Assembly: GCF_000020965.1 (NCBI RefSeq)
Contig: NC_011297.1
Span: 1,006,387-1,070,386, forward strand
Source: Dictyoglomus thermophilum H-6-12
GTDB lineage: Bacteria; Dictyoglomota; Dictyoglomia; Dictyoglomales; Dictyoglomaceae
Reading direction: 5' to 3'
DNA length: 64,000 nucleotides
Shown: piece after piece, positions 13,356-31,490 of the stretch
Layout of the letters: each line of letters begins with the position of its first letter
How positions within the stretch are numbered: the stretch's first letter is position 1
Position numbers and translations under genes: made by a program
The notes under the pieces: generated by a model
What the model saw: the letters and a program-made list of their open reading frames with translations, nothing else
Told to the model about the DNA's origin: nothing
Databases searched by the model: none

Positions 13356-14801
13356 ATGTATAAGCCTGTTATTGGTCTTGAAGTTCATGCCCAATTATCT
13401 ACAAAGACAAAACTATTTTGCTCTTGTAGTACTGAGCATGAAAATTTGCCTCCTAACACTAATGTTTGCCCTATTTGTATGGGCTTTCCAGGAGTTTTAC
13501 CTGTGGTAAATAAAAAGGCAGTGGAATATGCTATTAAGGCTGGTCTTGCCTTAAATTGTGAAATATCTAATTATTCCAAATTTGATAGAAAGAATTATTT
13601 CTATCCTGATCTTCCTAAGGGATATCAGATTTCTCAATATGATCTACCATTGTGTAGAAATGGATATATAGATCTTTATGTAGATGGAGAAATAAAAAGA
13701 GTAAGAATAAAAAGGATTCATCTTGAAGAAGATGCAGGAAAACTTCTCCATATAGGCTCTGGAGATAGACTCTCTGAATCTGACTACAGTCTTGTGGATT
13801 TCAATAGAGCAGGAATACCTCTCATTGAGATAGTTACAGAGCCTGATATAAATTCTCCTAAAGAGGCAAGACTTTTTTTACAAGAGTTAAGACTTATATT
13901 GAGATATTTGGGTATTAGTAGTGGTGATATGGAAAAGGGTTCCCTAAGGTGCGATGCTAATATATCCATCCAGACCGAGGAAGGTAAATTTGGAACAAGA
14001 ACAGAAATTAAGAATGTTAATTCTTTCTTTTCTCTCGAAAAAGCTCTTGAATATGAGATAGAGAGGCAGATTGAAATCTTAAAAAGAGGCGAAGAAGTTA
14101 TCCAAGAAACAAGACATTGGGATGAAAAGAAGCAAAAAACTGTAAGTTTAAGAAGTAAGGAAGAGGCAGAAGATTATAGGTATTTTCCAGAGCCAGATCT
14201 TCCCCCCTTAATGGTAACTGAAGAAATGAAAAATAAATTAAAAAGCGAGATACCCGAACTTCCAGCAAAAAGAAGAGAACGATATTTAGCTTTAGAGCTT
14301 TCTCCTGTAGATGTGGAGATTCTTGTATCTGACAAAGATTTATCAGATTTTTTTGATAAAGCATTAAGAATTTATGGAAACGCCAAAAATCTTCATAGCT
14401 GGTTGTCGGTAGAGATACTAAGTTATTTAAATGAAAATAAGCTTGAATTTAAAGATTTAGATATCGATCCTGAAAAATTTGTAAAATTAATAGAAATGGT
14501 AGATAAAAATGAAATCACAAGGCCTGTAGCTAAAGAAGTTTTAAGAAAATATCTTACCCAAAAAGAGGATCCTTTGGTTATAATAGAAAAAGAAGGCCTT
14601 AGAGTTGTAGCCGATACTTCCTATTTGCAAGATATAATTAAAAATGTTATATCAAACAATAGTAAGGCAGTGGAAGATTGGAAAAAGGGTAAAAAACAAG
14701 TTATAAATTTTTTGGTTGGTCAGGTGATGAAAGAAACAAGGGGTAGAGCAAGTCTTGATGTGGTCAAAAACCTTCTTGAAGAAGAGTTGAATAAATTATG
14801 A
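13356..14801 (+). CDS. gatB: Aspartyl/glutamyl-tRNA amidotransferase subunit B
   Basis: A 481-residue kinase-like subunit that activates and amidates the misacylated tRNA. The hallmarks are [16 protein letters not shown], the cysteine pair CSC...CPICMG (a zinc site), [13 protein letters not shown] and [10 protein letters not shown]. The C-terminal YqeY-like tail domain is complete. The stop overlaps the start of pilB by 4 bp, so the pilus operon may be partly co-transcribed with gatCAB. Confidence 0.97.
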
Positions 14802-16483
14802 AGGAAAAAAAGCCCTTAGGTGAATATTTATTAGAGCAAGGGCTGATTACTAAAGAACAGCTAGAAAAAGCTCTTGAAGAGCAAAAAAAGACAGGAGCAA
14901 AACTTGGACAAATTCTTATAGAAAGAGGATATGTAAAACCAGAAGATATAGGAAAGGTTTTAGAAAAACAGAGCGAAATTCCATATATTTCACTGGCTGA
15001 AGTTCAGATAGATGAAAGGGTTGCAAAGAGTTTTCCAGAGAATCTATTAAGAAGATATAAATTTATTCCCATTAAAAGAGAGTCTGGCGTCTTACATATA
15101 GCAGTTGTACCCCCTATAGATCCTGTGGTAATAAATGAAATAAGAAGAATTGTTAAATCTCCTATAAGAATTTTTATCATTACAGATAAGGAGTTTAACC
15201 AAGCAATATCTAAACTTTTTCCCTTAGAAAAAGCAACCCTTACAGTAGTACAAGACTTTCAAAAAACTGCTCCAGAACCTACTGTAGAGATACCCCCAGC
15301 CTTAGGGGTAGAGGAAGCCCCAATTGTAAAACTTGTATCATCCATAATAAATGAAGCCATAAACAGAAATGCCAGTGATATTCACTTAGACCCTCAAGAA
15401 AAGGAAATGAAGGTAAGATACAGGATACATGGAATACTCTATGATATAATGACCATTCCTAAAGAGGTTCAAGATGCGGTAGTTACAAGAATAAAAGTAA
15501 TCTCTGGAATGGATATAGCAGAAAAAAGAAGACCTCAAGATGGTAGAGCTACCTATAGATATGAAAATAGAGTTTTTGACCTGCGTGTAGCTTCTATTGG
15601 GGCTACTTATGGTGAAATGGTAGTAATAAGGCTTTTAGATAAAACCAAGGTACTTATCGAACTTGATAGATTAGGAATGTCAGATTACGATTTGAAAGTT
15701 TTTGAAAATCTTATAAAGAGACCTTTTGGTATGATCCTTGTGACAGGTCCTACAGGAAGTGGAAAAACTACTACTTTGTATTCTGCTCTTAATGTATTAA
15801 ACAAACCTGAAGTGAATATAATCACCCTTGAAGATCCTGTAGAATATGCTCTCCCGGGCATAAATCAAATTCAGATACAACCCCGAATAGGTATAGATTT
15901 TGCAGCAGGACTTAGAAATATTCTAAGACTTGATCCCAATATAATCATGGTAGGCGAAATACGAGATACCGAAACCCTAAATACCTCCATAGAAGCAGCC
16001 TTAACAGGGCATTTGCTCTTGAGTACTTTCCATGCTAATGACTCTGCAAGTGCTATTGCAAGGCTTGTTCAAATGGGAGTTGAGCCTTTTCTTATAGCCT
16101 CCTCTCTAATTGGCATCGTAGCACAGAGATTAGTAAGAACTATATGCCTTTCCTGTAAAGAAGAATATACCCCATCTCCTGAGGAGATTGAAGAACTTGG
16201 TCTAACAAAAGAGGAAGGTAAAAATATAACTCTTGCTCGAGGAAAGGGTTGTCTCTTCTGTAATTATACTGGATATACAGGAAGAACAGGAGTTTTTGAA
16301 ATTCTCAGAGTTACCAAAAATATAAGAAGTTTGATAAATTCTGGTGCATCCATAGACGAGATAAGAAATACTGCCCTTAAAGAAGGAATGAAAACCCTAT
16401 TTATGAATGCTAGAGAAAAAGTTCTAAACAAAATCACTACTATTGATGAGATAAGAAGAGTAATAGCCTGGGAGGAGAGTTGA
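14798..16483 (+). CDS. pilB: Type IV pilus assembly ATPase PilB (GspE family)
   Basis: The cytoplasmic hexameric ATPase that powers pilus polymerisation. An N-terminal MshEN/GspE-N domain (residues about 5-140) precedes the motor. Walker A is GPTGSGKTT at 317-325; Walker B is IIMVGEIRD at 382-390. The zinc-binding tetracysteine is Cys450, Cys453, Cys485 and Cys488. The length is 561 residues. It is followed immediately by pilC. No PilT retraction ATPase is encoded in the window, so the filament may be non-retractile or use a PilT from elsewhere. Confidence 0.95.
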
Positions 16484-16484
16484 T

Positions 16485-17687
16485 TTGCCCTCCTTCAGGT
16501 ATGTAGCTAAGGACCTACAAGGAAAAATATATAAAGGAATTTTAGAAGCCTCTTCCGAAAGGGAAGTAAGAAAGCTTTTAAAAGCTAAAAAACTATATGT
16601 AGTTTCTGTAAAGAAAGAATCAGATTTGTGGAAAACTCTCACTTATAAGAAAAAGGTTACCCTTCCAGAGTTGGTGTTATTTACTTCTCAATTCGCAACC
16701 TTACTTAGATCTGGAATAATTTTAACTGAATGTTTGTCAACTCTTGCTACCCAAACTGACAATGCCTACTTTAGAGATGTACTCTTTGATGTAAGAAAGA
16801 ATGTGGATGCAGGATTGAGTCTTTCAGAAGCTCTAAGTAGATACCAAAATGTATTTCCTAAAATATTTATAAGTCTTGTTAGGGCTGGAGAAGTCACAGG
16901 AAGTCTTGACGTAATGTTGGATAAGCTTTCTAAGTATTTTGATCTTCAGCATGAGTTAAGAGAAAAGATAAAATCGGCTACTACATACCCTCTTATTGTT
17001 ACAATTGCAGCGATAATTGTAGTAATTTTTATGTTGACCTTTGTAATTCCTACTTTTCAAAGGGTTTATGCAAGAACTAATGTTCCCCTTCCTCTACCCA
17101 CAAGGATTACCATTTCTCTTGGCAATTTCGTTAAAAACAATATTTTGATAATACTAATCCTTATTTCCCTTTTTATTGTGGGAGTAAGGCAAAGTTTGAA
17201 GAATAAAAAGGTCAAGAGATGGTGGGATGAATATAAATTAAAAATTCCTAAAATAGGAAAGTTATGGAGGCAAATACTTCTTGCAAGATTTGCAAGTACC
17301 TTTTATGTTCTCATCACAGGAGGTATATTGATAACCCAATCCTTAGAAATATTAGAAGATGTGATAGGAAACCTATATTTCTCTGAACATTTAAGAAAGA
17401 TGTTATCAGGGGTTTTAGAAGGGCGAAATCTGTCTGATATGATGGATGAAGAGGTTTTTACTCCTCTTTTGAAGCAAATGATTGTGGTAGGGGAGAGAAG
17501 CGGTAGACTTGATACCATGCTTGAAGAATACACAAGATTTGCAGAGAGAGAAATAGATATAGGTACAAAGAGAATTACCTCTATGATAGAACCTGCCTTG
17601 ACCATTTTTTTAGGAGTAGTCGTATTCTTTATTGTTATATCCATGTATCTGCCTATGTTTAATATGGTGAGACTATTTAGAAGATAA
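16485..17687 (+). CDS. pilC: Type IV pilus inner-membrane platform protein PilC (GspF family)
   Basis: A 400-residue protein with two GspF domains (about residues 68-190 and 270-392), each with motifs such as LVRAGEVTGSLDVMLDKL and VVGERSGRLDTMLEE. Three membrane segments lie near 168-190, 220-237 and 370-392. The N-terminal segment FRYVAKDLQGKIYKGILEA is typical of the family. TTG at 16485 follows GGGAGGAG. It recruits PilB and organises pilin assembly. Confidence 0.94.
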   Translation: MPSFRYVAKDLQGKIYKGILEASSEREVRKLLKAKKLYVVSVKKESDLWKTLTYKKKVTLPELVLFTSQFATLLRSGIILTECLSTLATQTDNAYFRDVLFDVRKNVDAGLSLSEALSRYQNVFPKIFISLVRAGEVTGSLDVMLDKLSKYFDLQHELREKIKSATTYPLIVTIAAIIVVIFMLTFVIPTFQRVYARTNVPLPLPTRITISLGNFVKNNILIILILISLFIVGVRQSLKNKKVKRWWDEYKLKIPKIGKLWRQILLARFASTFYVLITGGILITQSLEILEDVIGNLYFSEHLRKMLSGVLEGRNLSDMMDEEVFTPLLKQMIVVGERSGRLDTMLEEYTRFAEREIDIGTKRITSMIEPALTIFLGVVVFFIVISMYLPMFNMVRLFRR

Positions 17688-17725: not shown

Positions 17726-17776
17726 ACAAAAAGAATAATTTTAAAAATATTTTAAATATGAAAGGAGGTGAATATT

Positions 17777-18166
17777 TTGAAGAATAGTAGAGGTTTTTCA
17801 CTCTTAGAGCTCTTAGTAGTAATCGCAATTTTAGGAATCCTAGTAGCCATTGCTTTACCAAGATATTTTGATGCAGTGGCAGATGCAAAAAGATCAGCTC
17901 AAAAATCTAACATAGCAATTATAAGAACAAGCCTTGAATATTACAGAAATAAAAACAACACATATCCAACTTTAACAAACTTTTCTTCATTCTTGTCAGA
18001 TCCAACTTATTTTGCTGAACCCGTTGTATGTCCATATAATAATAAGGCATATACTGCCGTTGATGTCTCACAAACTTCAACCTATTGGGCTACATCTGGT
18101 AATGAAAATTATTTAGGATATACAAGCACAGCAAACGCATACACCTTAACCTATACTGCTCCATAA
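17777..18166 (+). CDS. Type IV major-type pilin (PilA/GspG-like)
   Basis: A class III signal peptide is visible: a short basic leader MKNSRG followed by FSLLELLVVIAILGILVAIA, with the invariant Glu at mature position 5. The mature protein is about 124 residues and contains YYRNKNNTYPT, the pattern of GspG/PilA globular domains. TTG at 17777 is the best start, 6 bases after the AAAGGAGGTG at 17761-17770; GTG at 17768 lies inside the ribosome-binding site. Its own promoter, strong ribosome-binding site and following terminator suggest it is the most abundant subunit. Confidence 0.92.
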   Translation: MKNSRGFSLLELLVVIAILGILVAIALPRYFDAVADAKRSAQKSNIAIIRTSLEYYRNKNNTYPTLTNFSSFLSDPTYFAEPVVCPYNNKAYTAVDVSQTSTYWATSGNENYLGYTSTANAYTLTYTAP

Positions 18167-18218: not shown

Positions 18219-18686
18219 ATGAAAAGTTTTTTAGTTATTTATGCCAAGCTTAAAAAGTATAAGAGAGCTGTAATTTATTTTTTACTCCTCTCTATATTCT
18301 TTCTTTCACTATACATGCTTCTTCACATCTTCTACTGGTTAAGGGTTTATACCTTTATTTTGTCTCATGAGGTCATCATAAATTCAAGATATGCCTCAGA
18401 ACTATCTATAGTTAAAGGAGAGAGGATTATTTATTCTTTTGAATATTCTCCTAAGTTAAATACTATACTCTTTTATCAGATTTATGGAGAAAAAACTAAA
18501 AAGGTATACGTTCCACCTCAACTTCTACCTTCTGGAATAAAAGGTATTAGTCCTACAAATACTTACACTTTTTATTTTGAAAATGGCAATATATACCCTG
18601 AAGGAGAAATCATCTTTTCTACATACTTCTATAAAAAAGGGGTAAAATTTTATAAAAATGGTAAGGTCGTTTTTATAGATGAATGA
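18219..18686 (+). CDS. Membrane-anchored protein of unknown function in the pilus operon
   Basis: A 155-residue protein not recognised. A basic N-terminus (about residues 1-18) precedes one strong membrane segment at about 19-43. The remaining about 110 residues are extracytoplasmic in character, rich in Tyr, Phe and beta-forming residues, ending FYKNGKVVFIDE. There is no prepilin signal. Its ATG falls 3 bp after the terminator's T-tract, with no clear Shine-Dalgarno, so expression is probably low. Its position between the pilin and minor-pilin genes suggests an accessory pilus role, but nothing in the sequence shows the function. Confidence 0.7.
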   Translation: MKSFLVIYAKLKKYKRAVIYFLLLSIFFLSLYMLLHIFYWLRVYTFILSHEVIINSRYASELSIVKGERIIYSFEYSPKLNTILFYQIYGEKTKKVYVPPQLLPSGIKGISPTNTYTFYFENGNIYPEGEIIFSTYFYKKGVKFYKNGKVVFIDE

Positions 18687-18727: not shown

Positions 18728-19177
18728 ATGAAAAGGGGATTTAATCTCTTGGAGGTTATTGCAATAGTCTTTATCCTCGCTATTCTGTTAGGAATAGCTT
18801 TAATATCTTTGAGATCTGGTCCTGATAAAAAGCTTATTTTAGAAAATGTAGTAAATCAGTTTAAAGAGGATATTAGATTTGTTAGACAAAGAGCAATCAT
18901 AAACAAGACTATCTGGACTCTCTCTTTAATGCCATCACCCACCTATACCACTTACACTTCATATATATTTTTAGATGATAAGAACAAAATAGTTTTAAGA
19001 AAATTGTCGGATATTAATCAGGTTATCTCTACTGCTACACTTTTTTCTTTTGATAGCGATGGAAACTTTATGGGAGATGATTCTGAAACTTCTGCTACCT
19101 TAACCTTAAGTATTGATGTGTACACTGCTACTATAAAAATCAATTCCTTAGGATATGTTGAAGTTATAGGGCTATGA
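18728..19177 (+). CDS. Minor prepilin, GspH/FimT-like
   Basis: A 149-residue prepilin: leader MKRG, then FNLLEVIAIVFILAILLGIA with Glu at mature position 5. The segment VVNQFKEDIRFVRQRAIINKT resembles the alpha-helix and start of the GspH/FimT fold. ATG at 18728 has no obvious ribosome-binding site. Its stop overlaps the next prepilin by 4 bp (ATGA). Confidence 0.85.
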   Translation: MKRGFNLLEVIAIVFILAILLGIALISLRSGPDKKLILENVVNQFKEDIRFVRQRAIINKTIWTLSLMPSPTYTTYTSYIFLDDKNKIVLRKLSDINQVISTATLFSFDSDGNFMGDDSETSATLTLSIDVYTATIKINSLGYVEVIGL

Positions 19178-19566
19178 GCAAGGGCTTGACATTTTTAGAA
19201 GTCCTTATTGCTATATTATTATTAGGTATTATAATGTCCTCCATAGGTGTTGGAGTTTCCTATATCGTAAAAAGTGATGAGTATGAGAATATGTTGAAAA
19301 ATTGCCTACTTCTTACAGAAGAAAAATTAGAAGAATATAGAAAGGTTGTTACAGCAAATTGGAATGCAACTTTTACCTATTCAGGGAATTTTTCTAATAT
19401 TGGATACACCGATTACTTTTATAGTATGACAGTATTAAATGTAGGTACTACTTATTCTTTAAGGCAGATATTTCTACAAGTATGGAAGGAAGAGAATAAT
19501 AATAACAAGTCAGACGACTTTGAACCTTCGACCATAATCATTACTTATATCTCTAAAAGGAGTTAG
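19174..19566 (+). CDS. Minor prepilin, GspI/PilV-like
   Basis: A 130-residue prepilin: leader MSKG, then LTFLEVLIAILLLGIIMSSI with Glu5. The short globular part contains CLLLTEEKLEEYRK, reminiscent of GspI. It is translationally coupled to the preceding prepilin and followed after 1 base by the lamin-tail pilin gene. Confidence 0.85.
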   Translation: MSKGLTFLEVLIAILLLGIIMSSIGVGVSYIVKSDEYENMLKNCLLLTEEKLEEYRKVVTANWNATFTYSGNFSNIGYTDYFYSMTVLNVGTTYSLRQIFLQVWKEENNNNKSDDFEPSTIIITYISKRS

Positions 19567-19567
19567 C

Positions 19568-21166
19568 ATGAAAAAGGGGCTAACTTTTATTGAAATTTTA
19601 ATAACTGTACTTATATTAGGACTTATAGCTATTTTATTAGCAAACATTTTAAGTAATTTTAATATTCTTTTCTCTCAAAAGACTGAAGAGAGAGAATCTA
19701 TAAGTAATCTACAAACTATTGTAGATAAACTCACAAGGGATATACGACAGGGGAACCAAGTATTAGATATAAGTCCTCCTACTCAAACCCTTGGATATTT
19801 GGTTTTATCCTTTCCCTCAGGTGATCAATCTACATACTCTTACTCCTATTACAATGGGAAATATTATTTTACTGTTGATGGAGAAATACTTGCAGGTCCG
19901 ATAAGAGAGATAAGATTTATGGGACTTGATGATAACTTAACTTATACTACTGTAACTTCTGCTATAAGAACTCTATCCATAAGTATTACCATGGATGATG
20001 GTAGATATATAAGTACTACAGTAGCTTTAAGATCTCAAACAATACCTCAGATTATAGGAATTTTTATTCGTGAGATAATGTATTACCCTGCCCCACGGGA
20101 TAGACAAGGAAATAGTATAAGCGAGAATTTGATGGAGTTTGTGGTGATTAGTAATGCTACCTATTCCTCAATAAACCTTAATGGCTGGAAGATTAACGGT
20201 CACATAATTTCAAACACGCTAAGTGGTACCTATACGGTACCTGCTCAAGGTCTTGCCATCATAGGAGCTAAAGGATCAAATTTGTCTTCTCATTATTTTA
20301 TTCCTAAAAACTGTATCATTCTTGAAGTAAGCGATCAATATTTAGGACAGAATAATAATCCATTGGGGAACAATGGCGACACAGTGGTGCTACAAGATAT
20401 CAATAACACAGTAGTAGATAAAGTAACCTATGATAAAAGTTGGGGAGGACAACCTTCGGGAAATACATACTATTCCTTATCAAGAAAGAGTATACAAAAT
20501 CCCTCTCAGGATCCATCAAATTGGGAAAGTAGTAAATTTAAGAACTACTCTCTTTCGACCCCAAGAATAGATGTATATTGTCTTTTGCCTCCTATTGTAA
20601 TAAATGAAATAATGTATTATCCAGCTCCTTATGATAAAAATGGACGTGGTAGAAATGAAAGAGATATAGAGTTTATAGAAATATACAATACCTCAAACCA
20701 GACTGTAAATATACAGAATTGGCAGATCAACGGTAATACTCTAGTGACTCTTGCTTCAGGAAGTTGGAATCTTTCTCCAGGAAGTTATGCAGTAATAGGA
20801 GGAAATAGATCGGCACTGGATAGGTATTATAATTTGGCACAAAATACTACTTATATAAGAACTAATTCAAGAGGACTTGCCTCAGGCGGAGGAGAATTAT
20901 CTGATACTGCAGGTACTGTAACCTTAGCAGATCCTAATGGTTCAACTGTTGACCAAGTTAATTATTCATATACTTGGGGAGGATATCCGTCAAGTTCTGG
21001 AAACTATAGATATCATTATTCTCTTGAGAGAAAATACTGGGACATGTTTCCTAACGATCCTTCAAACTGGGGTAGTAGTAGTAATTTGAACTATTCTGTG
21101 CGTGTCTTGCTTTTGACCTATAATGTATACTGTACTCCTGGAGGGAAGAATTCTAATTCGCCATGA
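19568..21166 (+). CDS. Minor prepilin carrying two lamin-tail-like (LTD) domains
   Basis: A 532-residue protein, much larger than an ordinary pilin. Residues 1-30 are a prepilin signal (MKKG then LTFIEILITVLILG, Glu5), and residues about 31-160 form a GspJ/PilW-like domain. Two homologous modules follow at about 166-320 and 343-502. They begin IREIMYYPAPRD and INEIMYYPAPYD. Each then has the order F(V/I)xI-N, LNGWKING or IQNWQING, GDTVVLQD or AGTVTLAD, VDKVTY or VDQVNY, WGG and SLxRK. This is the pattern of lamin-tail/LTD beta-sandwich domains found in bacterial surface proteins. It is plausibly a tip adhesin of the filament. The LTD call rests on remembered motifs, not a profile search. Confidence 0.85.
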   Translation: MKKGLTFIEILITVLILGLIAILLANILSNFNILFSQKTEERESISNLQTIVDKLTRDIRQGNQVLDISPPTQTLGYLVLSFPSGDQSTYSYSYYNGKYYFTVDGEILAGPIREIRFMGLDDNLTYTTVTSAIRTLSISITMDDGRYISTTVALRSQTIPQIIGIFIREIMYYPAPRDRQGNSISENLMEFVVISNATYSSINLNGWKINGHIISNTLSGTYTVPAQGLAIIGAKGSNLSSHYFIPKNCIILEVSDQYLGQNNNPLGNNGDTVVLQDINNTVVDKVTYDKSWGGQPSGNTYYSLSRKSIQNPSQDPSNWESSKFKNYSLSTPRIDVYCLLPPIVINEIMYYPAPYDKNGRGRNERDIEFIEIYNTSNQTVNIQNWQINGNTLVTLASGSWNLSPGSYAVIGGNRSALDRYYNLAQNTTYIRTNSRGLASGGGELSDTAGTVTLADPNGSTVDQVNYSYTWGGYPSSSGNYRYHYSLERKYWDMFPNDPSNWGSSSNLNYSVRVLLLTYNVYCTPGGKNSNSP

Positions 21167-21601: not shown

Positions 21602-22993
21602 ATGATTAGCATTCAATGGCTTAATGGTAGATTAAAAATGGCGAGAGTTTTAAAAAAAGGGAAGAGTATAGAATTAAGAGATTACCAGGAAATGGAGATA
21701 CCACAAGGAGACTTTTGGAATAGAGGATTAGAAGAGAAAAACTTAGTTCAGGAAAAAATCGAAAAATTCCTAAAGGAGAATAAAATAAAGGATAAAGAAG
21801 TAATATTACTTTTTGAAAGTAAAGATATCTCTATAAGAACTTCCGAGTATCCCAGCATGTCTTTAAAAGATCTTGAAATGGCAATACTTGATGATCTCGA
21901 AGAATTTCAAGCCTTTGATGAAAGCTACAACTCTTTTACCTTCTCCGTAATTACTCAGGATAAAAATAAGGTAAGATCTGTCGTAGCTACAATCCCTAAA
22001 ATAATAATTGATACTTGGGAAAATATATTTAAAAACTTGGGGCTTACTCTTATATCCCTTGAGCCCTCTTTTATTTCAGGTATAAGATACATCTTAGTAT
22101 CTCTTAAGAACAGATATCCCGATGGAATTATATTTATAGGTAATGAAACTACAGATTTAGTTTTCATAAGAGATAGAAAAATTAACTCTGTAATAAACTT
22201 GAGCGTGGGAATTAACGACTTTTATAATTTAAATGATCTATCCTCTGATACTACCTTTTTAAGTTGGCAAGAAGAAGTAGTTACTTATTTAAACAGTGCT
22301 TTCTATGAAAGTAAAGATAAAAATATAGTGATATTTGGAGAAGATGAGAGGTATTTTAAAGTTGTAGAAAATTTTGTAAAAAACATATCTCCAGAATATA
22401 AAGTAGAGATAACAGAAGATCTTAATATTTCTCTTTTAGGAACAGCTCTATATGGAGAAACAAACATTCCTAAACTAAGTTTTGTAAAAGAAAAAGTTAT
22501 TATAGAGAGAGAATTAATAATAAGGTCTGCTATTTCTTTTTTACTTGCCTTATCTTTAATGTTTCCTTTGAATCTCTATCTTGATATTAAAATCAAGGAT
22601 TTAGACAGGAGAATTAACTACTTACAAGGAGAAATTACAAAATATAATGACCAGATCAACAATCTGAGAAAAGAGGTCGATACTCAAAATGCAATAGTAA
22701 AAATATTGGAAGGATGGCTCCAAGAAAGATCTACAGTATCATTACCTTTTCTCTTTCTTTCTGATTTAAAATATATGGTTCCTCAAAACGTCTGGCTTAC
22801 ATCTGTGGATATTGGGGTCGATAAAAAACTAACAATAGAAGGCTATAGCCTTGATACTGAAGGTGTGGCGGATTTCCTCCTTGCTCTATCTCAATATGAG
22901 AGAATAAAAAATGTTAAGTTAGAGAGTGCTATCTTAGAGGTTTTGCAAAATCGTCAAATACAAAGATTTGAGATAGTGGGGTATATCAAATGA
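21602..22993 (+). CDS. PilM-PilN fusion (GspL-like pilus assembly protein)
   Basis: A 463-residue protein. Residues about 1-290 resemble the actin-like PilM/GspL cytoplasmic domain (segments ISLEPSFISG and GIIFIGNETTDLVFI). Residues about 307-327 form one membrane segment, followed by a coiled coil (about 330-372) and a PilN-type domain with MVPQNVWLTSVDI and FLLALSQYERIKNV. In most type IV pilus systems PilM and PilN are separate; the single-chain form is the type II secretion GspL layout. It links the motor to the alignment complex with the PilO and PilP-like products that follow. Confidence 0.85.
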   Translation: MISIQWLNGRLKMARVLKKGKSIELRDYQEMEIPQGDFWNRGLEEKNLVQEKIEKFLKENKIKDKEVILLFESKDISIRTSEYPSMSLKDLEMAILDDLEEFQAFDESYNSFTFSVITQDKNKVRSVVATIPKIIIDTWENIFKNLGLTLISLEPSFISGIRYILVSLKNRYPDGIIFIGNETTDLVFIRDRKINSVINLSVGINDFYNLNDLSSDTTFLSWQEEVVTYLNSAFYESKDKNIVIFGEDERYFKVVENFVKNISPEYKVEITEDLNISLLGTALYGETNIPKLSFVKEKVIIERELIIRSAISFLLALSLMFPLNLYLDIKIKDLDRRINYLQGEITKYNDQINNLRKEVDTQNAIVKILEGWLQERSTVSLPFLFLSDLKYMVPQNVWLTSVDIGVDKKLTIEGYSLDTEGVADFLLALSQYERIKNVKLESAILEVLQNRQIQRFEIVGYIK

Positions 22994-23535
22994 AAAACAA
23001 GATACATTTATACATCTTCATAATAGTTTTAGTCCTCGGCTTAGTTCTATTTATAATGCCAAAGTACTCTGAAGTGAGTAAAAAGGAGAAATTATATGAA
23101 ACAAAGAAATTAGAATTAGAGAATGCCATAGAAAGCATTAATGCACTCAGAGATACTTTAAATAAGATTAAAGAAAAAAGAAATGTAATCTTTTCAGAAA
23201 GAAATCTTCTTTTCTTAGAAGAGGAAGAAGTGCCAATATTTTTCAAAGATCTAAGTATAGTGATGAAAAGAAACAAAATAACAAGCTTCGAGATCAAACC
23301 ATTAGAATATGAAGAAATAAAGGATCTTCCAGAAGGCTTTCCTTTAAAATTAAAAAAATTACCTATTAATCTAAAGGTTGTGGGAAATTATAACCAATTT
23401 ATAGACTTTTTTAGAGACCTTTATGATCAAAGTTATCCTTTAAGCTTTAATCAAGTTCAACTTGTAAGTGACAATAATATATTGACCCTTAATGTAGTTT
23501 TTGATGTGTATGTACTTGAGAGAGGAGGGGAGTAG
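22990..23535 (+). CDS. PilO-like pilus alignment protein
   Basis: A 181-residue bitopic protein: membrane segment at about residues 7-24, coiled coil about 30-75, then a ferredoxin-like domain with FFKDLSIVMKRNKI and LKVVGNYNQFIDFFRDLYD, typical of PilO/GspM. It overlaps the PilM-PilN gene by 4 bp, the usual order N then O. Confidence 0.85.
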   Translation: MKNKIHLYIFIIVLVLGLVLFIMPKYSEVSKKEKLYETKKLELENAIESINALRDTLNKIKEKRNVIFSERNLLFLEEEEVPIFFKDLSIVMKRNKITSFEIKPLEYEEIKDLPEGFPLKLKKLPINLKVVGNYNQFIDFFRDLYDQSYPLSFNQVQLVSDNNILTLNVVFDVYVLERGGE

Positions 23536-23536
23536 T

Positions 23537-24076
23537 ATGAGAAAAATAGATTATGTTCTAAGTGGTTTTTTGATTGCATCCTTAGGTTTAAACACTTATT
23601 TTGTGATTAATATGGATAAATTGATAAGGGACGATTTTGAAGAAATAATATCAGCAAAGAAGGTATCTTTTGTTCAGCAAAACTTAGAAAAAATAGATCA
23701 AATTAAGATAGCTGAAAACTTAAATGATTTAAAGAAAAAATATAAATTGTCTTTGGGGAGAACAGATCCATTTAAACCACTAATTGAAGAGCGTAGACAA
23801 GAATCTGGCAGTATAAATTCTATTTTACCTGATAAGAATGTTGTAAAAGTTATCCCTGAAAGTGAGAGACCAAATTTTGTTGTTAGAGGCATATTAAAGG
23901 GAAAATACAATGAGGTGGTAATTTTAGAAAAACCTGAAAAAGAAGAGAGCTTCGTAGTAGAGAAGGGCAAAGAAGTAGATGGTTATCGAATAATAAAGGT
24001 AGACATAGATAACAACACTATTACTTTACGTAAAAATAATAGAGACTTTATCTTAAAATTAGTAGGAGATAGGTAG
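23537..24076 (+). CDS. PilP/GspC-like periplasmic pilus protein
   Basis: A 179-residue protein with one membrane segment at about residues 7-24. It has a central GRTDPFKPL motif like the DPF motif before the homology region of PilP/GspC, then a beta-rich C-terminal domain (RGILKGKYNEVVILEKPEKEE, GYRIIKV, ITLRKNN). ATG at 23537 follows GAGAGGAGGGG. In family members this domain contacts the secretin, but no secretin gene is in the window. The last 18 bases overlap the convergent minus-strand prepilin gene. Confidence 0.75.
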   Translation: MRKIDYVLSGFLIASLGLNTYFVINMDKLIRDDFEEIISAKKVSFVQQNLEKIDQIKIAENLNDLKKKYKLSLGRTDPFKPLIEERRQESGSINSILPDKNVVKVIPESERPNFVVRGILKGKYNEVVILEKPEKEESFVVEKGKEVDGYRIIKVDIDNNTITLRKNNRDFILKLVGDR

Positions 24077-24841
24077 CTCTTCTAAAAATATTGTTCCGTT
24101 AAATGTTATATCTCTTGTCCTAACAATATTTTGGTATCTTTTCTGAATTTTTAAATAAACTTGAACCTGTTGGATATTAGTATTTCTTGCAGGAACAGTA
24201 TCAGTATAAGTATTTAAGGTATATGTATTGTTCGTTGGGTTAAAAGTACTATAGTCAATAACATAGTAGGTCAAAGTAAAGCCATTTGGTACTATGTAAT
24301 CAGCAATTATTCTGGGGCCTTCTCCTGAAGTAAAGGTTATATTTGTAGGGTAGTTGACTATCTTGCCTATTTTCAAAGTTTTTGATGTACCAGTAAAGGC
24401 AACAGCAATAGTGTAAGTAGTATATTGAGGAGTCCAATTTATTAATTTTCTATAATACAAGAGCATTCTTGCATTAGGAAGGGCATTATCCATAGGTATT
24501 CTTGGCCTTGTTAAATAGACATTTAAATAATAACCTCCAGAAGGTGCGGGAGTTATAGTTAGGAGTTTGTCATATCCTACTCTTTCGTTTATATTTAGGT
24601 TGAAACTTGAGTTGTCAGTAAGTCTGACATTCACATTTGGAGGATATACAAAAATACTTTTTAGTAGTGAATCAAGAATGTTAGTTCTCGCTGAATTAAA
24701 GGAATCATATATTTCTTTATCAAGCCTCTGGGATATAAGATCTCTTTGTACTGACATCCATATAGCAAAGGTTACTGCGATTATTATAAAGAGTATAAAG
24801 AGAGAAATTATTAGTTCAACTAAGGTCATGCCTTTTTTCAT
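24059..24841 (-). CDS. Minor prepilin, GspJ/PilW-like
   Basis: A 260-residue prepilin: leader MKKG, then MTLVELIISLFILFIIIAVT with Glu5. It is the last gene of the minus-strand cluster and ends inside the plus-strand PilP-like gene. Its start overlaps the upstream prepilin by 4 bp. The globular part is beta-rich, with alternating Thr/Tyr segments and no recognisable extra domain. Confidence 0.85.
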   Translation of the reverse strand: MKKGMTLVELIISLFILFIIIAVTFAIWMSVQRDLISQRLDKEIYDSFNSARTNILDSLLKSIFVYPPNVNVRLTDNSSFNLNINERVGYDKLLTITPAPSGGYYLNVYLTRPRIPMDNALPNARMLLYYRKLINWTPQYTTYTIAVAFTGTSKTLKIGKIVNYPTNITFTSGEGPRIIADYIVPNGFTLTYYVIDYSTFNPTNNTYTLNTYTDTVPARNTNIQQVQVYLKIQKRYQNIVRTRDITFNGTIFLEELPISY

Positions 24842-25401
24842 GGTCTTGTAACTACCCCCGCAAGCTCTGCTAAAGGATTTTCGTATCTTTTAGGTGGCGC
24901 ACCGGGCCCAGGTTTGTGGAGATTAGTATTAATTTTGCCATTATTTTTGGCATAATAAACCCTTACTGTTATCCTTTTTAGAATAGCCACTGACGAATCT
25001 GGATTTTTATAATCTTTAACCAAAAATTGTACTACATATTTAGGAACACCATTTATCTTAGGAATATTATAAAAATCTGTATACAGTCGATCATTGTCAG
25101 GTGGATCCGCAGGAATTGCAGGTCTTATAGTTGGTATTGCTGGAATTGCTCTTGTTTCATTCACTTCATTTTCTATTAGTGCATCAAAATTTGCCTCGCT
25201 ACTTCCTGCCCAAATTTTTACTGTCTCAATAATATTTTTTGCTATATCCTGGGCTTCTGCCCTATCTCTTGCTCTCTTATTTAGAGCATAACTCCAAATG
25301 GTTGCTCCTGTTAATCCAAGTACTAATATCATTAGAATTATGGTAAATATTGTTACACCTATTAAAGATTGACCTTTTTCAGTATTTATCTTCAACCCCA
25401 T
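24838..25401 (-). CDS. Prepilin-like membrane protein
   Basis: A 187-residue protein with leader MGLKINTEKG followed by QSLIGVTIFTIILMILVLGLTGA, without Glu5. ARDRAEAQDIAKNIIETVKIW forms the extended helix. A repetitive Pro/Ala/Ile segment (AIPAIPTIRPAIPADPP) lies near residue 90. The start is ATG 25401, or the adjacent GTG 25404, behind AGGGGGTG. It is probably a GspI/PilV-type minor subunit. Confidence 0.75.
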   Translation of the reverse strand: MGLKINTEKGQSLIGVTIFTIILMILVLGLTGATIWSYALNKRARDRAEAQDIAKNIIETVKIWAGSSEANFDALIENEVNETRAIPAIPTIRPAIPADPPDNDRLYTDFYNIPKINGVPKYVVQFLVKDYKNPDSSVAILKRITVRVYYAKNNGKINTNLHKPGPGAPPKRYENPLAELAGVVTRP

Positions 25402-25417
25402 CACCCCCTAATTTTTT

Positions 25418-25675
25418 TTACTCAATAAACTCCACAAAGGGAGGATAAGGACCTTTTTCAGAACTTCCTTTACTTTCTACATTGATAGTATTGGTTGTAT
25501 TAATGTTACTTTCGACTTCCAAATTCACATCTCTCTCTATCTTCTCTTTTACTTCTCCTGAAGAAACATAATCACCACTGGTAGATTTAATCGAAAATGC
25601 CTTGAAAATTAATATAACTATAAAGATAGCTATGCTTATAATTAACAAAACCCTATCGATATTTTTTATTTCCAT
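25418..25675 (-). CDS. Small single-pass membrane protein of unknown function
   Basis: An 85-residue protein with ATG at 25675 behind GGAGGGAAC. One membrane segment at about residues 9-25 is followed by a low-complexity hydrophilic tail rich in Ser, Glu, Asn and Thr, ending PYPPFVEFIE. No prepilin motif and no known family was recognised. Its start overlaps the stop of the large upstream surface-protein gene, so it belongs to the prepilin operon. Confidence 0.7.
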   Translation of the reverse strand: MEIKNIDRVLLIISIAIFIVILIFKAFSIKSTSGDYVSSGEVKEKIERDVNLEVESNINTTNTINVESKGSSEKGPYPPFVEFIE

Positions 25676-27375
25676 TGTTCCCTCCAAGAGTCAATAGATA
25701 CCCACCTCTGGGTTTGAGGGTTACCCTCCTGTATTGTCCTTCCTGTAGTGGGGAAGTAAGGTGGAGCATACCCCGATCTCATTCTATAATCATACCAGAA
25801 ATCTCTCCCATAACCGCTTTGAGGAACCGGATTACCATTTCTATCGGTGGTAAATGTACCAAAAGCACCATAATTTTTGGATATAATACCACCTAAAAGG
25901 TGCACATCTCCCGCAGGAGACCTAGTGTTATAGTTAGCTACTTGTACCACCCCATTGGGGGCCATAAGTACTGCATGGATATTAGGATCTTGTAGTGGAG
26001 TTCCATTACTATTTCTAGGGTCAAGAATTATATTGCCAGTTTCTGCAAGGAGTCCAAGTACATTCACAGCATCGGGATTGTTTCTTGGATCTTCCTCATA
26101 GGTTATGTGATGTGTTATAGTTATATTATTCTTAGCAACCACTGTAATTCTTTGATCTTTTTGTACTATGCCTTTTATACTTGTGACACTTCCATTTACA
26201 TAGATTACTCCATTGGGAATTTTATTTATTTCTATAGTTTTATTGCCTATTTTTACATAAGTTTTATTATTTTGAGTATCAATAGTGAATACATAAGTAT
26301 TTGATCCTTGGGTTATAGTATAAACTGCTCTTCCTAAGGAATCTTTTCCAAGTTCTATGCTTGCATTACCTTGTACATATATTCCTCCACCATTGGCTAT
26401 TGTTATGGTATATATTCCATTATCAGGTGCCTGATTACTAACGGGTAGACCAAGGTACTGCCTTATAATAGAGTATGTGGGTGAATAGGTTGGAAAATTA
26501 TCATTAGGGAAGTAGGATAGTGCAGCGTAAAGCTGAGTATAAGCTACGGTAGGAAGATTAATTGCAGGAGCACCTCTGACAAATCCTCTTGCAAAATAGG
26601 GAATATCTCTTGGAGGATTACTATCCGCATCAAGCCTTCTTTGATTTCCTCCATTGTAAAATAGAGCTGTTCTTGAATAGGAAGATACTTCATCAAAAAA
26701 TTGTGGTGTGTATGCAAAAGCAAATTCTCCATTGGTATGGACAGGACCATAGAATCTTGTCCTATCTGTAAACCAAACTCTTGTTGTACCATCTCCCATT
26801 ACATGTCTATCAGTAAATAATGCAAATCTTGCAAAATTTTCCTTTCTCAATACTCCCTCAATTTTACCTGTTACCGTTACCTCAAGGCTAATAGGTGGAT
26901 TAAAGTTTATTTTTCGACCCAAACAGGTTATTGTATATACATAAGTATAGCTAATTTCGTCAGTTGTTCCACCTCTTACCACTGCACTATAGCTTGCCAA
27001 ACTAAAAGAGTAATCTAATATAGAGTAAACAGTAGTAGGGTCTACTTGAGATGTATTGGTATAAATGTAATTGATCGTATTAACAAGGTTTGAGTTATTT
27101 TTTGATAGAACATATGAGAGAAAATCACTATCTATATCTGTTAGTTTTCGCCTTGTCAATTGGTCTTTTAGGTAATATCTGGCTGTAGTAAGAACAGTTT
27201 TAATACCGACTTGAGTAGCATAAAGCACTTGATCTCTTGCCTGATTTCTACGGGTAAAAAAGGATTGTTCAATAGGGAAGTTTACAACAAGGGCAATCAA
27301 AGCAGTAATAAAGATAGCAAAGGTAATCGCCGTGATTAAACTTATGTCTCCTTTCTCCCCCTTTTTACCTCTCAT
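25666..27375 (-). CDS. Large PilX-like surface protein (DUF4900-like)
   Basis: A 569-residue protein. The N-terminus MRGKKGEKG-DISLITAITFAIFI is prepilin-like without Glu5, followed by FFTRRNQARDQVLYATQVG, a PilX-like helix. The body is beta-rich and contains FARFALFTDRHVMGDGTTR and TRFYGPVHTNGEF at about residues 181-218, which I recall from DUF4900-type proteins. Later GGGIYVQGNASIELG and PNGVIYVNGSVTSIKGI suggest stacked beta turns. It has its own likely promoter after a terminator. It could be a large minor subunit or tip protein. Confidence 0.78.
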   Translation of the reverse strand: MRGKKGEKGDISLITAITFAIFITALIALVVNFPIEQSFFTRRNQARDQVLYATQVGIKTVLTTARYYLKDQLTRRKLTDIDSDFLSYVLSKNNSNLVNTINYIYTNTSQVDPTTVYSILDYSFSLASYSAVVRGGTTDEISYTYVYTITCLGRKINFNPPISLEVTVTGKIEGVLRKENFARFALFTDRHVMGDGTTRVWFTDRTRFYGPVHTNGEFAFAYTPQFFDEVSSYSRTALFYNGGNQRRLDADSNPPRDIPYFARGFVRGAPAINLPTVAYTQLYAALSYFPNDNFPTYSPTYSIIRQYLGLPVSNQAPDNGIYTITIANGGGIYVQGNASIELGKDSLGRAVYTITQGSNTYVFTIDTQNNKTYVKIGNKTIEINKIPNGVIYVNGSVTSIKGIVQKDQRITVVAKNNITITHHITYEEDPRNNPDAVNVLGLLAETGNIILDPRNSNGTPLQDPNIHAVLMAPNGVVQVANYNTRSPAGDVHLLGGIISKNYGAFGTFTTDRNGNPVPQSGYGRDFWYDYRMRSGYAPPYFPTTGRTIQEGNPQTQRWVSIDSWREQWK

Positions 27376-27418
27376 TTGTTAACACTCCTTATTAATATTT
27401 AAGATCTTTCTAAAATAT

Positions 27419-27447
27419 ATTATACACATAAAAAACAAAAAATAAAC
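27419..27447 (-). promoter_or_regulatory. Putative promoter before the DUF4900-like gene
   Basis: Reading the minus strand, TATAAT lies at 27424-27419 with a weak AT-rich -35 region around 27447-27442. It lies about 45 bp upstream of the ATG at 27375. AAGGAGTG serves as ribosome-binding site. Confidence 0.5.
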
Positions 27448-27472
27448 CTATCTTCTTTGAATTCAAAAGAAG
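27431..27472 (-). terminator. Putative terminator inside the minus-strand prepilin cluster
   Basis: On the minus strand CTTCTTT (27472-27466) pairs with AAAGAAG (27458-27452) around a 7-base loop. A long T-rich tract follows. It would end transcripts from the 31434-27520 half of the cluster and divides the cluster into two units. Confidence 0.6.
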
Positions 27473-27519
27473 TTTGAGAATTTCTAATGGCTAATTTAAA
27501 AATAATTCAAACTATAATC

Positions 27520-28104
27520 TTAATACATCATCGCAATCTTACCTGTAGTAGTTATCTTTATAGAATAAGAGAGATTTATAGTTAAATTTTTACCTGTTAT
27601 TACTAAACCATTATTACTTGTAATATTAGTGTCCGAAGATAATCTTCTGCCATTTAAAGAATTAACAATCTTCGCCTGTCCTCTAATCTCATCCGTATTT
27701 CCACCTGCTTTAAATACAATCACCAAATAGTTTTTGCCATTTATGTTTAGAGTAGGTGATACCAATTGCATTTTTATGTTTCTTGGAAACTTTACATTTT
27801 TAAAGTATCGAGAGGTTGTATCTCCTGGAACAAAATGTAAATTATAAGTTTGAGGATTTTGTAGCATTCCATATTGCATAAATTCAACATAATATTCATC
27901 TTCACCAATGTACGCAATAAGGTCTTGTTGTTGAGTAATAGCTTTTTCTCTTACAATCCTTAAATCTTGAGCAAGTTGCCAAATTGTATTTTCCAAAGCT
28001 TTTCTTTCATAAAAATTTCGCAGAGTCGGAATACCAATTATTGCAATAATAGCTAAAACAGCAAGGACAATATATAATTCTATTAAGCTAAACCCTTTTC
28101 TCAT
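27520..28104 (-). CDS. Minor prepilin, GspH/FimT-like
   Basis: A 194-residue prepilin: leader MRKG, then FSLIELYIVLAVLAIIAIIG with Glu5. The helix region TIWQLAQDLRIVREKAITQQQDL matches the FimT/GspH pattern. The start overlaps the stop of the large upstream gene by 4 bp. A 144-bp gap with terminator and promoter separates it from the next gene. Confidence 0.85.
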   Translation of the reverse strand: MRKGFSLIELYIVLAVLAIIAIIGIPTLRNFYERKALENTIWQLAQDLRIVREKAITQQQDLIAYIGEDEYYVEFMQYGMLQNPQTYNLHFVPGDTTSRYFKNVKFPRNIKMQLVSPTLNINGKNYLVIVFKAGGNTDEIRGQAKIVNSLNGRRLSSDTNITSNNGLVITGKNLTINLSYSIKITTTGKIAMMY

Positions 28105-30020
28105 AGCTTTACACTAACTACAGGATTTAAAGATCCTATATAATTTTCAGAAACAGTTTTAGTTATAATCTCTGACCATTTATTTCTTAATACTTTTCCT
28201 GCAGAAGATGTAACTTCAAAAGAAACACTAACATACTTCTTTGGCTCTCCCATTAATGGAGGTGGAGCAATGGTATTATTAGCAAGTCTGTTGTCATAAA
28301 TTATATTCTGCTTTCCATTAAAAGTAACTCCCTGGGTACTTCCATAACCCCCACCAATGACAGCTCCAAATATAGTAGATTCACCATTAAAAGTGACGTT
28401 ACTATAAGGAGCATACATTAGTCCATGATACTCTACACTTCCATTTACTACTATTCCACCATTAGATCCTTGTCCAAGAGAAACAAGGGCAGAAATATTT
28501 TTATCATCCAAGTATTTTATTCCCTGAGCTCCATTAAATTGTATCTTCTTAGTGGAAATTATAGTACCCGAACCTTTTATCTTGACTATTCCATTAAAAG
28601 TTACATCTCCATTTACCCATATAACGCCTGGAGATGAAAATTCAAGAGTACAATCACCATTAAAAGTAAGATTACCATTAATATACAAGGCTACTGGGGG
28701 ATTGGTTGAAGTAGGATTTATTTTCACGTTTCCAACAGCATTTAAAGTTAATGCTCCATTTATATAATAAGGTACATTTGTCCCATTGTAAGTTCTTCCG
28801 TTTACTACAAGACTATAATTATTGTAAGTGGTTAAAGATCCATTATGAATAACTCCTGATGAACTTGCTATCTGTTTTATCTGATCCTCTAAAGGAAGGG
28901 GAATCTCTGGTAATGATTCTTTTTGATTGTAAATTATCTGTCCTCCTATATATGGTTTACCAGTTATAGTAATAGGATTTGCTTCTTGAGGTAGAGAGGT
29001 TATCAAGTTGCCGTATATATTTGGTGCTCCATGCAGGGTTACTCTTCCATCTACATATAAATCTCCATTACTATACTGAGTAGTATAAGTACCATTGGGA
29101 GATATATTCCCTGAATATATGTCAAGAGCTCCATTTATAGTTATGCCATTTCCAGACCAAACTGCATGAGTAAAAGCAGGTGGTATTATGGTATTGGTAT
29201 AATCTTTAATAATTTGTGCTAATATACTTCCAATTTTAGCGGAGGAATAAATTGACCTAATCTTATTAGGGTTGTTTAAATAATATCCGGTAATTCTTAT
29301 ATGAAATTCTCCATTACTCCCACTGTCATCAGTGTATTGAACATTAGTTCTTAAGACAACCCAACGATTGGTTGTTCTAAGATTACTATCTAAGGTAGAT
29401 AAACGATATGTATTATTTGAATAGAATTCTTGTACCAAAGTATTTTCATTTATTTCGGATAGATTTGGAATTAAATAATACATTCCGCTATTATTTAATC
29501 CAACTACTTTGTATAATTTCTTTTCGGATAGATCGTACAAGTAACTTCCATAATTATCTAAAATATCCCAAAGAGACCCAGAACTTTTAATAGCCTGAGA
29601 ATAATTGCTATAATCTGCTCCTACAGCACTATACGGGTTTAATGTAGTGTTTAGATCAACTACTTCTCCACCATTGATTTTAGAAAGAAGTAAACTCAAA
29701 GTATAATAAGCTGATGCTTTTTTGATCATATTTTCGTCAGTTAGTTTTTGGGATATTATATTTAACCCCCTGTAAATATCTGAGTTTATGTCAAGTACAG
29801 ATGAAAGTAGTAGTTTAGAAAAATCGTTTATAGTAAGTAGAGTATTATCAAGCATCAAATCACATGCGACAAGTAAATTATCCGACATTTTTTCCTCACT
29901 AAAAAGAACATCCTTAGTCAAAGCAGTATTAAGAAGAGTTATCGAGATTCCAAGAAGTATGAAACCAAGAAAAATCACCAATACAATAGTCGAATATCCT
30001 TTCTCCTTAATTTTAATCAT
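28101..30020 (-). CDS. Large PilX-like surface protein with repeated NG beta-turn motifs
   Basis: A 639-residue protein. The N-terminus MIKIKEKG-YSTIVLVIFLGFILLGISI is prepilin-like without Glu5. From about residue 290 the sequence becomes a regular beta-strand array with recurring turns: INGALDIYSG, YVDGRVTLHGAPNIYG, YINGNLTFNG, WVNGDVTFNG, VVNGSVEYHG. FNG follows a T or Q at about residues 453, 475, 495, 544 and 567. This periodicity suggests a beta-solenoid, similar to surface or polymer-forming folds. It is flanked by prepilins and coupled to the next gene. No enzymatic motif is visible. It is probably a stalk or tip component; the function is inferred from context only. Confidence 0.78.
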   Translation of the reverse strand: MIKIKEKGYSTIVLVIFLGFILLGISITLLNTALTKDVLFSEEKMSDNLLVACDLMLDNTLLTINDFSKLLLSSVLDINSDIYRGLNIISQKLTDENMIKKASAYYTLSLLLSKINGGEVVDLNTTLNPYSAVGADYSNYSQAIKSSGSLWDILDNYGSYLYDLSEKKLYKVVGLNNSGMYYLIPNLSEINENTLVQEFYSNNTYRLSTLDSNLRTTNRWVVLRTNVQYTDDSGSNGEFHIRITGYYLNNPNKIRSIYSSAKIGSILAQIIKDYTNTIIPPAFTHAVWSGNGITINGALDIYSGNISPNGTYTTQYSNGDLYVDGRVTLHGAPNIYGNLITSLPQEANPITITGKPYIGGQIIYNQKESLPEIPLPLEDQIKQIASSSGVIHNGSLTTYNNYSLVVNGRTYNGTNVPYYINGALTLNAVGNVKINPTSTNPPVALYINGNLTFNGDCTLEFSSPGVIWVNGDVTFNGIVKIKGSGTIISTKKIQFNGAQGIKYLDDKNISALVSLGQGSNGGIVVNGSVEYHGLMYAPYSNVTFNGESTIFGAVIGGGYGSTQGVTFNGKQNIIYDNRLANNTIAPPPLMGEPKKYVSVSFEVTSSAGKVLRNKWSEIITKTVSENYIGSLNPVVSVKL

Positions 30021-30050
30021 AGCTAAACTCCCCCCAGTCAGAAAAATTAT

Positions 30051-30623
30051 TTATTGCCTTAGAGAAATTAGAAAAGTCCTATATATACTCATGGTATTTC
30101 CATAAGGAAGAATAGATTCTGCAAAAATTTCCACCTCTACAACTCTTGGATCCCAAAAGGGTCTTCTTATAATTACGTTTCTAAAAACTTTCTCTGTTAA
30201 TGGTTGGCTATTTATTATTTGTTGAAAAGTAGCTCCATTATCGTTAGATAAATTTAGAGAATAAAGAATAGCTCTCATTCCCTTTGAGTTGGCAGTACCA
30301 GGTAGATAAACAATTTTTCTAATATGATTATTTTCATCTACCGTATTAAATTCAATGAGCTTGTTCTGACTAAAGTCAGAAGTACTATCATTTGAGCTTG
30401 AGTAGGAAGGAAAAGTTATAGTATAAGCTTGTCTTAAATCATTAGAAAGTTGTTGAATGAAAATACTCATATCATCGAGAATTTCATTATATATTTGTTG
30501 GGAACGGGATATTTGAAAAGAATAGAGAAGGGCACCAAATATTAAAGAGAAAATGATCATAAATATAACAATAACTATTAAAGTCTCTACAAGGGTAAAA
30601 CCTTTATCTTTTTTAATTTTCAT
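30051..30623 (-). CDS. Minor prepilin, GspJ/PilW-like
   Basis: A 190-residue prepilin: leader MKIKKDKG, then FTLVETLIVIVIFMIIFSLIFG with Glu5. The segment DMSIFIQQLSNDLRQAYTITFP is characteristic of GspJ/PilW. The start lies one base after the stop of the preceding prepilin, consistent with co-translation. Confidence 0.87.
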   Translation of the reverse strand: MKIKKDKGFTLVETLIVIVIFMIIFSLIFGALLYSFQISRSQQIYNEILDDMSIFIQQLSNDLRQAYTITFPSYSSSNDSTSDFSQNKLIEFNTVDENNHIRKIVYLPGTANSKGMRAILYSLNLSNDNGATFQQIINSQPLTEKVFRNVIIRRPFWDPRVVEVEIFAESILPYGNTMSIYRTFLISLRQ

Positions 30624-30624
30624 C

Positions 30625-31434
30625 TTAATCTCCCCAAGTCATTATTTGATTTGCTACCTCATAAGAGTATTCTTTACCACCATAAACCCAAAAGACTCTT
30701 ACAAGAACATCATAAAATTGGACATGTTCTGGATCACTAGTATATCTTTTTCTTGCTATAATTCTTGTAAGAATCCTAAAACCTTCGTAGTTCATAGTAC
30801 TTTTCATTAAACTGGCATCGTTAGTATAGTGAGGATCATAGTCAGGAGAATTTGGATTAGTTTTTTTAACATCATTTGTATAAATTTTAGGTATATAAGT
30901 TCCTTTTGCCTTGAAAAGATTTTTTGATATATTTTTAGAATATTTAACCAAAGGAATTAAATTAGTAGTTTTATCTTTTCCATTATCGAGGTTGGCATCA
31001 GAAGCTCCAAAGGGAACAAATCCTTGTAGGACAGAATAGAAAGATTGAGGCTTATCATTATAAGTTTGATAAGGAAGAGAAGGATTAACATTTATGACTA
31101 ATGGATCGCCGTTTATATCTACAAGCCCAGGATAATAATGATAGGAATCATTACCTAATGTATAACTAGTACCATATGTGGATCCATATTTGGCATCTAT
31201 AATAGATCCTTTTCCAGGATTATTTTGATAATTAACATTTCTTGATCTTATATATTCAACAGTAAAAAAGGCTATATTTTTTGCCATCTCTGAAAGCTCT
31301 GTTTTTTTTATTTTTTCTCCAGAAGAGATAAAAACAGGAAGAGAAAAACTCATAATAATAAGCAAAATAGTCATGCTTACCAGAAGTTCTACCAAAGAAA
31401 ACCCTTTCAATTTTTTAATTAAAGTCACACCCAT
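30625..31434 (-). CDS. Minor prepilin, first gene of the minus-strand cluster
   Basis: A 269-residue prepilin: leader MGVTLIKKLKG, then FSLVELLVSMTILLIIMSFS with Glu5. The helix continues KTELSEMAKNIAFFTVEYIRSR. The globular part is larger than usual for GspI/PilV and rich in Tyr, Asn and Pro. The start is ATG 31434, with GTG 31437 adjacent. Its promoter lies in the gap shared with the divergent ilv operon. Confidence 0.85.
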   Translation of the reverse strand: MGVTLIKKLKGFSLVELLVSMTILLIIMSFSLPVFISSGEKIKKTELSEMAKNIAFFTVEYIRSRNVNYQNNPGKGSIIDAKYGSTYGTSYTLGNDSYHYYPGLVDINGDPLVINVNPSLPYQTYNDKPQSFYSVLQGFVPFGASDANLDNGKDKTTNLIPLVKYSKNISKNLFKAKGTYIPKIYTNDVKKTNPNSPDYDPHYTNDASLMKSTMNYEGFRILTRIIARKRYTSDPEHVQFYDVLVRVFWVYGGKEYSYEVANQIMTWGD

Positions 31435-31490
31435 CACCCTAATGTTGTATCTATTTTCCTTTGGTACTGATTACTTTTTACTTTTTATAA

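Follow-up and report, generated by a model that had tools for sequence, protein, structure and literature searches.

How does a protein that begins as a type IV prepilin come to end in two lamin-tail domains (LTDs), and what would such a protein do on a filament? The question is raised by a gene of Dictyoglomus thermophilum H-6-12 in the 64,000-nucleotide stretch of DNA analyzed here (the window, positions 1006387–1070386 of a single 1,959,987-base contig). A sequence-only reading had proposed a tip adhesin in which a prepilin carries a duplicated LTD module. We propose, with moderate confidence, that the LTD pilin is the J subunit (GspJ/PilW/ComGF type) of an H-I-J-K tip complex and displays a two-LTD, ligand-binding head at the filament tip.

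Results

A Prepilin with a Predicted GspJ-Type Module

The N terminus of the LTD pilin (MKKGLTFIEILITVLILGL; Table 1) has the features of a class III signal, with Gly at −1, Glu at +5, and a hydrophobic helix. Single HMM matches are weak (Pfam N_methyl on the LTD pilin alone, E = 0.035, below cut-off; NCBIfam TIGR02532, E = 0.011; N_methyl on a paralogue, E = 0.002). This N terminus can be aligned in every relative, and G4 and E9 are invariant in 7 relatives. The normal prepilin signal described in the sequence-only reading thus held up.

A whole-protein AF2 model, built from eight Dictyoglomaceae proteins, had a mean pLDDT of 82. When the model was compared with the PDB using Foldseek, GspJ-type pseudopilins ranked first (3nje and 5bw0, probability 1.00; XcpW, EpsJ, and GspJ), the matched region being the first 160 residues. 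With the pilin module alone, the top 18 matches were all GspJ/XcpW/EpsJ chains or their complexes (probability 0.99–1.00). The fold predicted for this part is therefore J-type. Since the TM-scores of the structural alignments to J-type proteins were moderate (0.4–0.6) and identity was only 10–14%, this model-based assignment concerns fold type, not close kinship. Family HMMs gave no GspJ match in the LTD pilin and a ComGF E value of 0.069, far below cut-off, and a PDB search with its sequence returned prepilin helices only (E = 0.006 or worse).

Two Lamin-Tail Modules from One

Searched with PF00932, the whole protein scored 103.5 bits (E = 1e-29) over two stretches, and each copy passed the curated cut-off of 34.3 bits singly in the genome search, which confirms the LTD named from the letters alone. 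The full modules extend over residues ∼163–339, including a C-terminal β-hairpin, and ∼340–532, with the terminus TPGGKNSNSP. Both were predicted by AF2 to be all-β, and in the Foldseek search of the whole model the human lamin-B1 tail (3umn) matched the C-terminal part (probability 0.98, TM-score 0.51 by target), as would be expected of an Ig-like β-sandwich. The structure prediction thus agrees with the earlier reading for the LTD modules and adds the GspJ-type fold for the prepilin part.

When the β-hairpin extension ending in VYC is included, the two modules are 37% identical. Their local alignment scored 305, whereas 500 shuffles gave a mean of 38 (SD 6.7) and a maximum of 72, so the likeness is not due to chance. 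The comparison points to an old internal duplication, as the sequence-only reading had suggested from repeat motifs that are all present in the sequence. The net charges of the modules are 0 and −2, and those of all relatives range from −2 to +3.

The Operon and the Rest of the Machine

Genes in the window follow the order E-F-G-x-H-I-J-K-L-M-C/P, with the LTD pilin at the J position (Table 1); the H-I-J-K order is repeated at two related loci (L007 and L010). The genes from H to the PilO-like one overlap by a few bases or are separated by short gaps. The I gene, whose start falls inside the stop of H, ends 1 base short of the LTD pilin, and the K start overlaps the LTD pilin stop by 4 bases. 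As expected for a cap subunit, K is small and has no Glu5. The position of the membrane protein between G and H is kept in relatives (L007, L008, L010, and L261). The assembly ATPase scored 585 bits as PilB and 567 bits as GspE, both below cut-off, and its c-di-GMP_motif match (76.9 bits) lies above the cut-off of 38. From this MshEN motif and the nine GGDEF domains in the genome, we infer that c-di-GMP control of the operon is plausible.

Table 1. Positions of the LTD pilin, its parts, its operon, and related genes (window coordinates unless a locus is named)
Feature	Position	Strand	Evidence
LTD pilin ORF, 532 aa	19568-21166	+	
Class III (prepilin) signal and hydrophobic N-terminal helix	19568..19648	+	sequence; predicted cleavage after Gly4, MKKG/LTFIE
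GspJ-type pilin module (helix 5-61, β-sheet 64-153), predicted	19580..20053	+	AF2 pLDDT 87.5; Foldseek
LTD copy 1 core (residues 165-289)	20060..20434	+	PF00932, 50.9 bits, above cut-off; AF2 pLDDT mostly 81-94
LTD copy 2 core (residues 342-466)	20591..20965	+	PF00932, 64 bits, above cut-off; AF2
PilB/GspE-type assembly ATPase, MshEN c-di-GMP motif	14798..16483	+	T2SSE E 2.6e-127
GspF/PilC inner-membrane platform protein	16485..17687	+	T2SSF E 2.4e-56; GspF 348 bits, below cut-off 424
GspG-like major (pseudo)pilin	17768..18166	+	N_methyl E 1.6e-9; GspG 52.9 bits, below cut-off
155-aa membrane protein, no known family, between G and H pilins	18219-18686		
H-type minor pilin (GspH/ComGD-like)	18728..19177	+	GspH E 5e-4; ComGD E 1.1e-8, below cut-off
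I-type minor pilin, by position	19174..19566	+	TIGR02532 E 0.0013; ComGE E 0.0027
K-type minor pilin, 144 aa	21163..21597	+	GspK E 1.4e-5, below cut-off
PilM-PilN fusion (GspL-like arrangement)	21602..22993	+	pilM E 2.1e-8; PilN E 4.3e-11 at residues 385-458
PilO/GspM-like protein	22990..23535	+	PilO E 3.1e-4, just below cut-off
PilP/GspC-like protein, putative	23501..24076	+	position and size only, from gene order; no family match
Prepilin-peptidase-like gene	L153 4964-5731		read by eye
PilQ-type secretin, 1259 aa	L153 11096-14872 (genome ∼884-888 kb)		repeated AMIN, STN, Secretin_N, GspD_N0 matches
Orphan LTD-pilin paralogue, 572 aa	L005 8205-9923 (genome 88204-89922)		

The operon in the window contains no gene for a PilT retraction ATPase, a secretin, or a peptidase; all of these are found at other loci. 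It probably lacks a dedicated retraction motor, and, because the secretin and peptidase are missing from it, both must be borrowed. A second, complete pilus set lies outside the window, split between ∼730 kb (PilB-PilT-PilC and two major pilins) and ∼878–888 kb (a PilD-like peptidase, four minor pilins, PilM, N, O, P, and PilQ). One secretin was found in the genome. It passes the PilQ cut-off, not that of GspD, and is part of the pilus operon; its presence makes a diderm host probable. The protein is unusually long.

Distribution and Origin of the LTD Pilin

Orthologues occur across the Dictyoglomaceae, with two LTDs in three genomes (G001, G002, and G005). In a fourth (G004) there is one LTD and the gene ends directly after it, so the tandem is not essential. 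The absence of an orthologue from two genomes is not taken as evidence of loss: the G006 assembly is split between contigs at precisely the interval from the 155-aa gene to K, and the PilC match of G003 is close to a contig end in an assembly that is only 72% complete. Within the D. thermophilum genome, LTD matches are confined to the operon LTD pilin and an orphan paralogue that has no pilus genes nearby. The neighbors of the orphan (OsmC-like and rRNA-methyltransferase-like, named by eye) are the same in two other genomes of the genus. The orphan is possibly an exchangeable tip subunit. In a midpoint-rooted tree of LTD modules, all first copies cluster (96/96) and the orphan second copies are separate; on this tree, the duplication looks older than the split between orphan and operon genes.

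LTDs were found in 153 of 290 sampled genomes. A class III signal was seen in none of the 136 distinct LTD ORFs from outside Dictyoglomota whose N terminus was in view, a sample that is limited and biased toward the best LTD scores, and rare LTD pilins may exist elsewhere. The sequence-only reading had called the architecture unusual, and in this sample of other phyla it is indeed not common. Three candidates (L065, L074, and L089) had been picked up as LTD pilins by regular expression; on reading, their matches were not signals.

When the pilin module was searched against 386 genomes, the J-type relatives were mostly bare proteins of 170–200 aa without an LTD, and several of 550–1800 aa had other cargo or none that was recognized. 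Because the closest relatives of the module elsewhere are complete in 170–200 aa, the best of them matching it over most of its length, we regard the LTDs as an addition to the pilin. In genomes outside the Dictyoglomus family, some prepilins of ∼950–1160 aa (L232, L234, L238, and L242–L245) match the J-type module at their N terminus and carry fn3, SdrD_B plus FG-GAP, or Calx-β domains.

Discussion

A Proposed Head at the Filament Tip

Homology places the LTD pilin in the tip complex, as a predicted GspJ-type pilin whose gene stands in a GspG-x-H-I-J-K series. The J subunit of H-I-J-K complexes is packed against I and K at the tip (PMC9934059; PMC6211770). By the same homology, PilD would cleave the LTD pilin after Gly4, and the filament would be initiated when the N-terminal helix of J packs against the I and K pilins. 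A short linker (residues ∼154–163) would join the pilin module to the LTD sandwiches, which, at ∼370 residues, would be too bulky for the shaft and would be held out at the tip. There, we conjecture, the head may bind a surface, a polymer, or another protein. The argument from bulk has been made for Streptococcus sanguinis PilB and PilC, grafted pilins of solved structure that were modelled at the tip (PMC8179133; PMC9934059), and by this analogy the tip is where J could most easily accommodate 370 extra residues. That the J-LTD architecture is kept across the Dictyoglomaceae supports the tip-head reading. For the tip adhesin of the sequence-only reading, the tip is favored by the GspJ-type pilin and its gene order; a net charge near zero lends no support to DNA as a ligand.

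The operon scores as well with GspE/F/G/K models as with pilus models. The filament might therefore remain within the envelope, and the operon may encode a T2SS-like machine instead of a classical type IV pilus. A periplasmic LTD head at the tip of a pseudopilus would then recruit folded exoproteins, which would exit through the genome's single secretin. We consider this main rival unlikely. It draws on the gene order E-F-G-x-H-I-J-K-L-M, which is that of a T2SS, on the fusion of PilM and PilN, as in GspL, on the lack of PilT in the operon, and on the finding that GspF, GspG, and GspK are the top-scoring NCBIfam models for their genes; furthermore, XcpW/GspJ is essential for secretion (PMC6211770). 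However, none of the T2SS equivalog models (GspE/F/G/K) passes its cut-off, the ATPase is slightly better as PilB, the sole secretin found scores as PilQ, lies in a pilus operon, and is not a dedicated GspD, and a tip normally sized to fit a secretin would be made larger by two LTDs. The operon does not reach the type IVa pilus standard either, since its PilB score falls short of 675.65 bits and PilT, PilQ, and PilD lie at other loci.

The ligand of the head can be approached by comparison. Extracellular nucleases are frequent fusion partners of LTDs (PMC4486849; PMC6085458), the J-type pilin of Com pili (ComGF) binds DNA together with ComGD (PMC12153270), and ComEC is present in the genome; the LTD pair could accordingly be pictured as a DNA-capture head for natural transformation. 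This is highly improbable in our judgment, as the modules of the LTD pilin and its relatives are near neutral in charge and the LTD of ExeM is dispensable for DNA degradation in vivo (PMC6085458). We also doubt strongly that the LTDs have no external ligand and act as a structural cap or as an anchor to the S-layer or outer envelope. In its favor are an earlier proposal that LTDs guide proteins to membranes or to structures associated with them (Mans et al., 2004, cited in PMC6085458) and the small size of the K subunit, which could leave the cap role to J. The variable copy number (one in G004) and the divergence of the orphan paralogue, however, suggest that the target changes, unlike that of a fixed cap. 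The richness of the LTD modules in Tyr, Asn, and Ser was rejected as evidence for a carbohydrate-binding aromatic surface because the other pilins in the window share this composition (the G subunit is 11.3% Tyr); an abundance of aromatic residues is typical of these pilins in general.

No match to the PilY1 tip adhesin was found in the genome, a point for the tip-displayed head that we favor but a weak negative result given that no control genome passed the PilY1 cut-off. A further step can be imagined. Dictyoglomota could have swapped the usual PilY1-type adhesin for LTD heads on J, with the stand-alone LTD J-pilin of the genus Dictyoglomus interchangeable at the same tip and altering what the filament binds. 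We regard this as speculative and rather unlikely; if true, it would give a bacterial lamin-tail domain its first defined binding role.

Relation to Known Pilins and LTD Proteins

Modular pilins have been described in 264 architectures (PMC8179133), and the LTD pilin is one of this kind, combining a pilin module with a recognizable domain that is not specific to pili. It shares with S. sanguinis PilB (vWA) and PilC (lectin) an N-terminal pilin module, a short linker, a C-terminal functional domain, and an expected position at the tip. Unlike them, it carries two lamin-tail domains on a GspJ-type carrier, and its host is a thermophile with a secretin, probably diderm. With GspJ/XcpW/EpsJ, PilW, and ComGF it has in common the predicted fold of residues 1–160 and a gene between I and K, but the J subunits of model systems stop after the pilin domain, whereas the LTD pilin continues for ∼370 residues. 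The large J-type prepilins mentioned above have the same type of carrier and a long C-terminal graft, but other cargo.

The LTD part resembles that of other bacterial LTD proteins (the ExeM nuclease and surface proteins) in HMM match, fold, tandem copies, and a TPGxKNS ending. It differs from them in having no nuclease or phosphoesterase partner, in its prepilin rather than Sec signal, and in its near-neutral modules, as against an average charge of −13. The role of bacterial LTDs has been described as not elucidated (PMC6085458), and in the literature searched a single paper mentions both “lamin tail domain” and “pilin”, drawing no link between the two. The two-LTD head may be novel as the cargo of an otherwise known type of modular pilin, and the LTD may already be among the 264 architectures (Dataset S1 of PMC8179133). 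A J subunit that carries grafted domains takes the concept of modular pilins further than the PilB and PilC of Streptococcus. Because the LTDs are here part of a structure of predictable location, a binding role is directly testable with a soluble fragment.

A second, convergent cluster of pilin-like genes lies on the minus strand of the window (24059–31437). It encodes several N_methyl or prepilin-like proteins of 188–270 aa, together with a 569-aa DUF4900 protein and a 639-aa DUF7305 protein, these two long ones resembling K/PilX-type proteins with a β-rich domain. A similar arrangement is found at L013 of genome G019.
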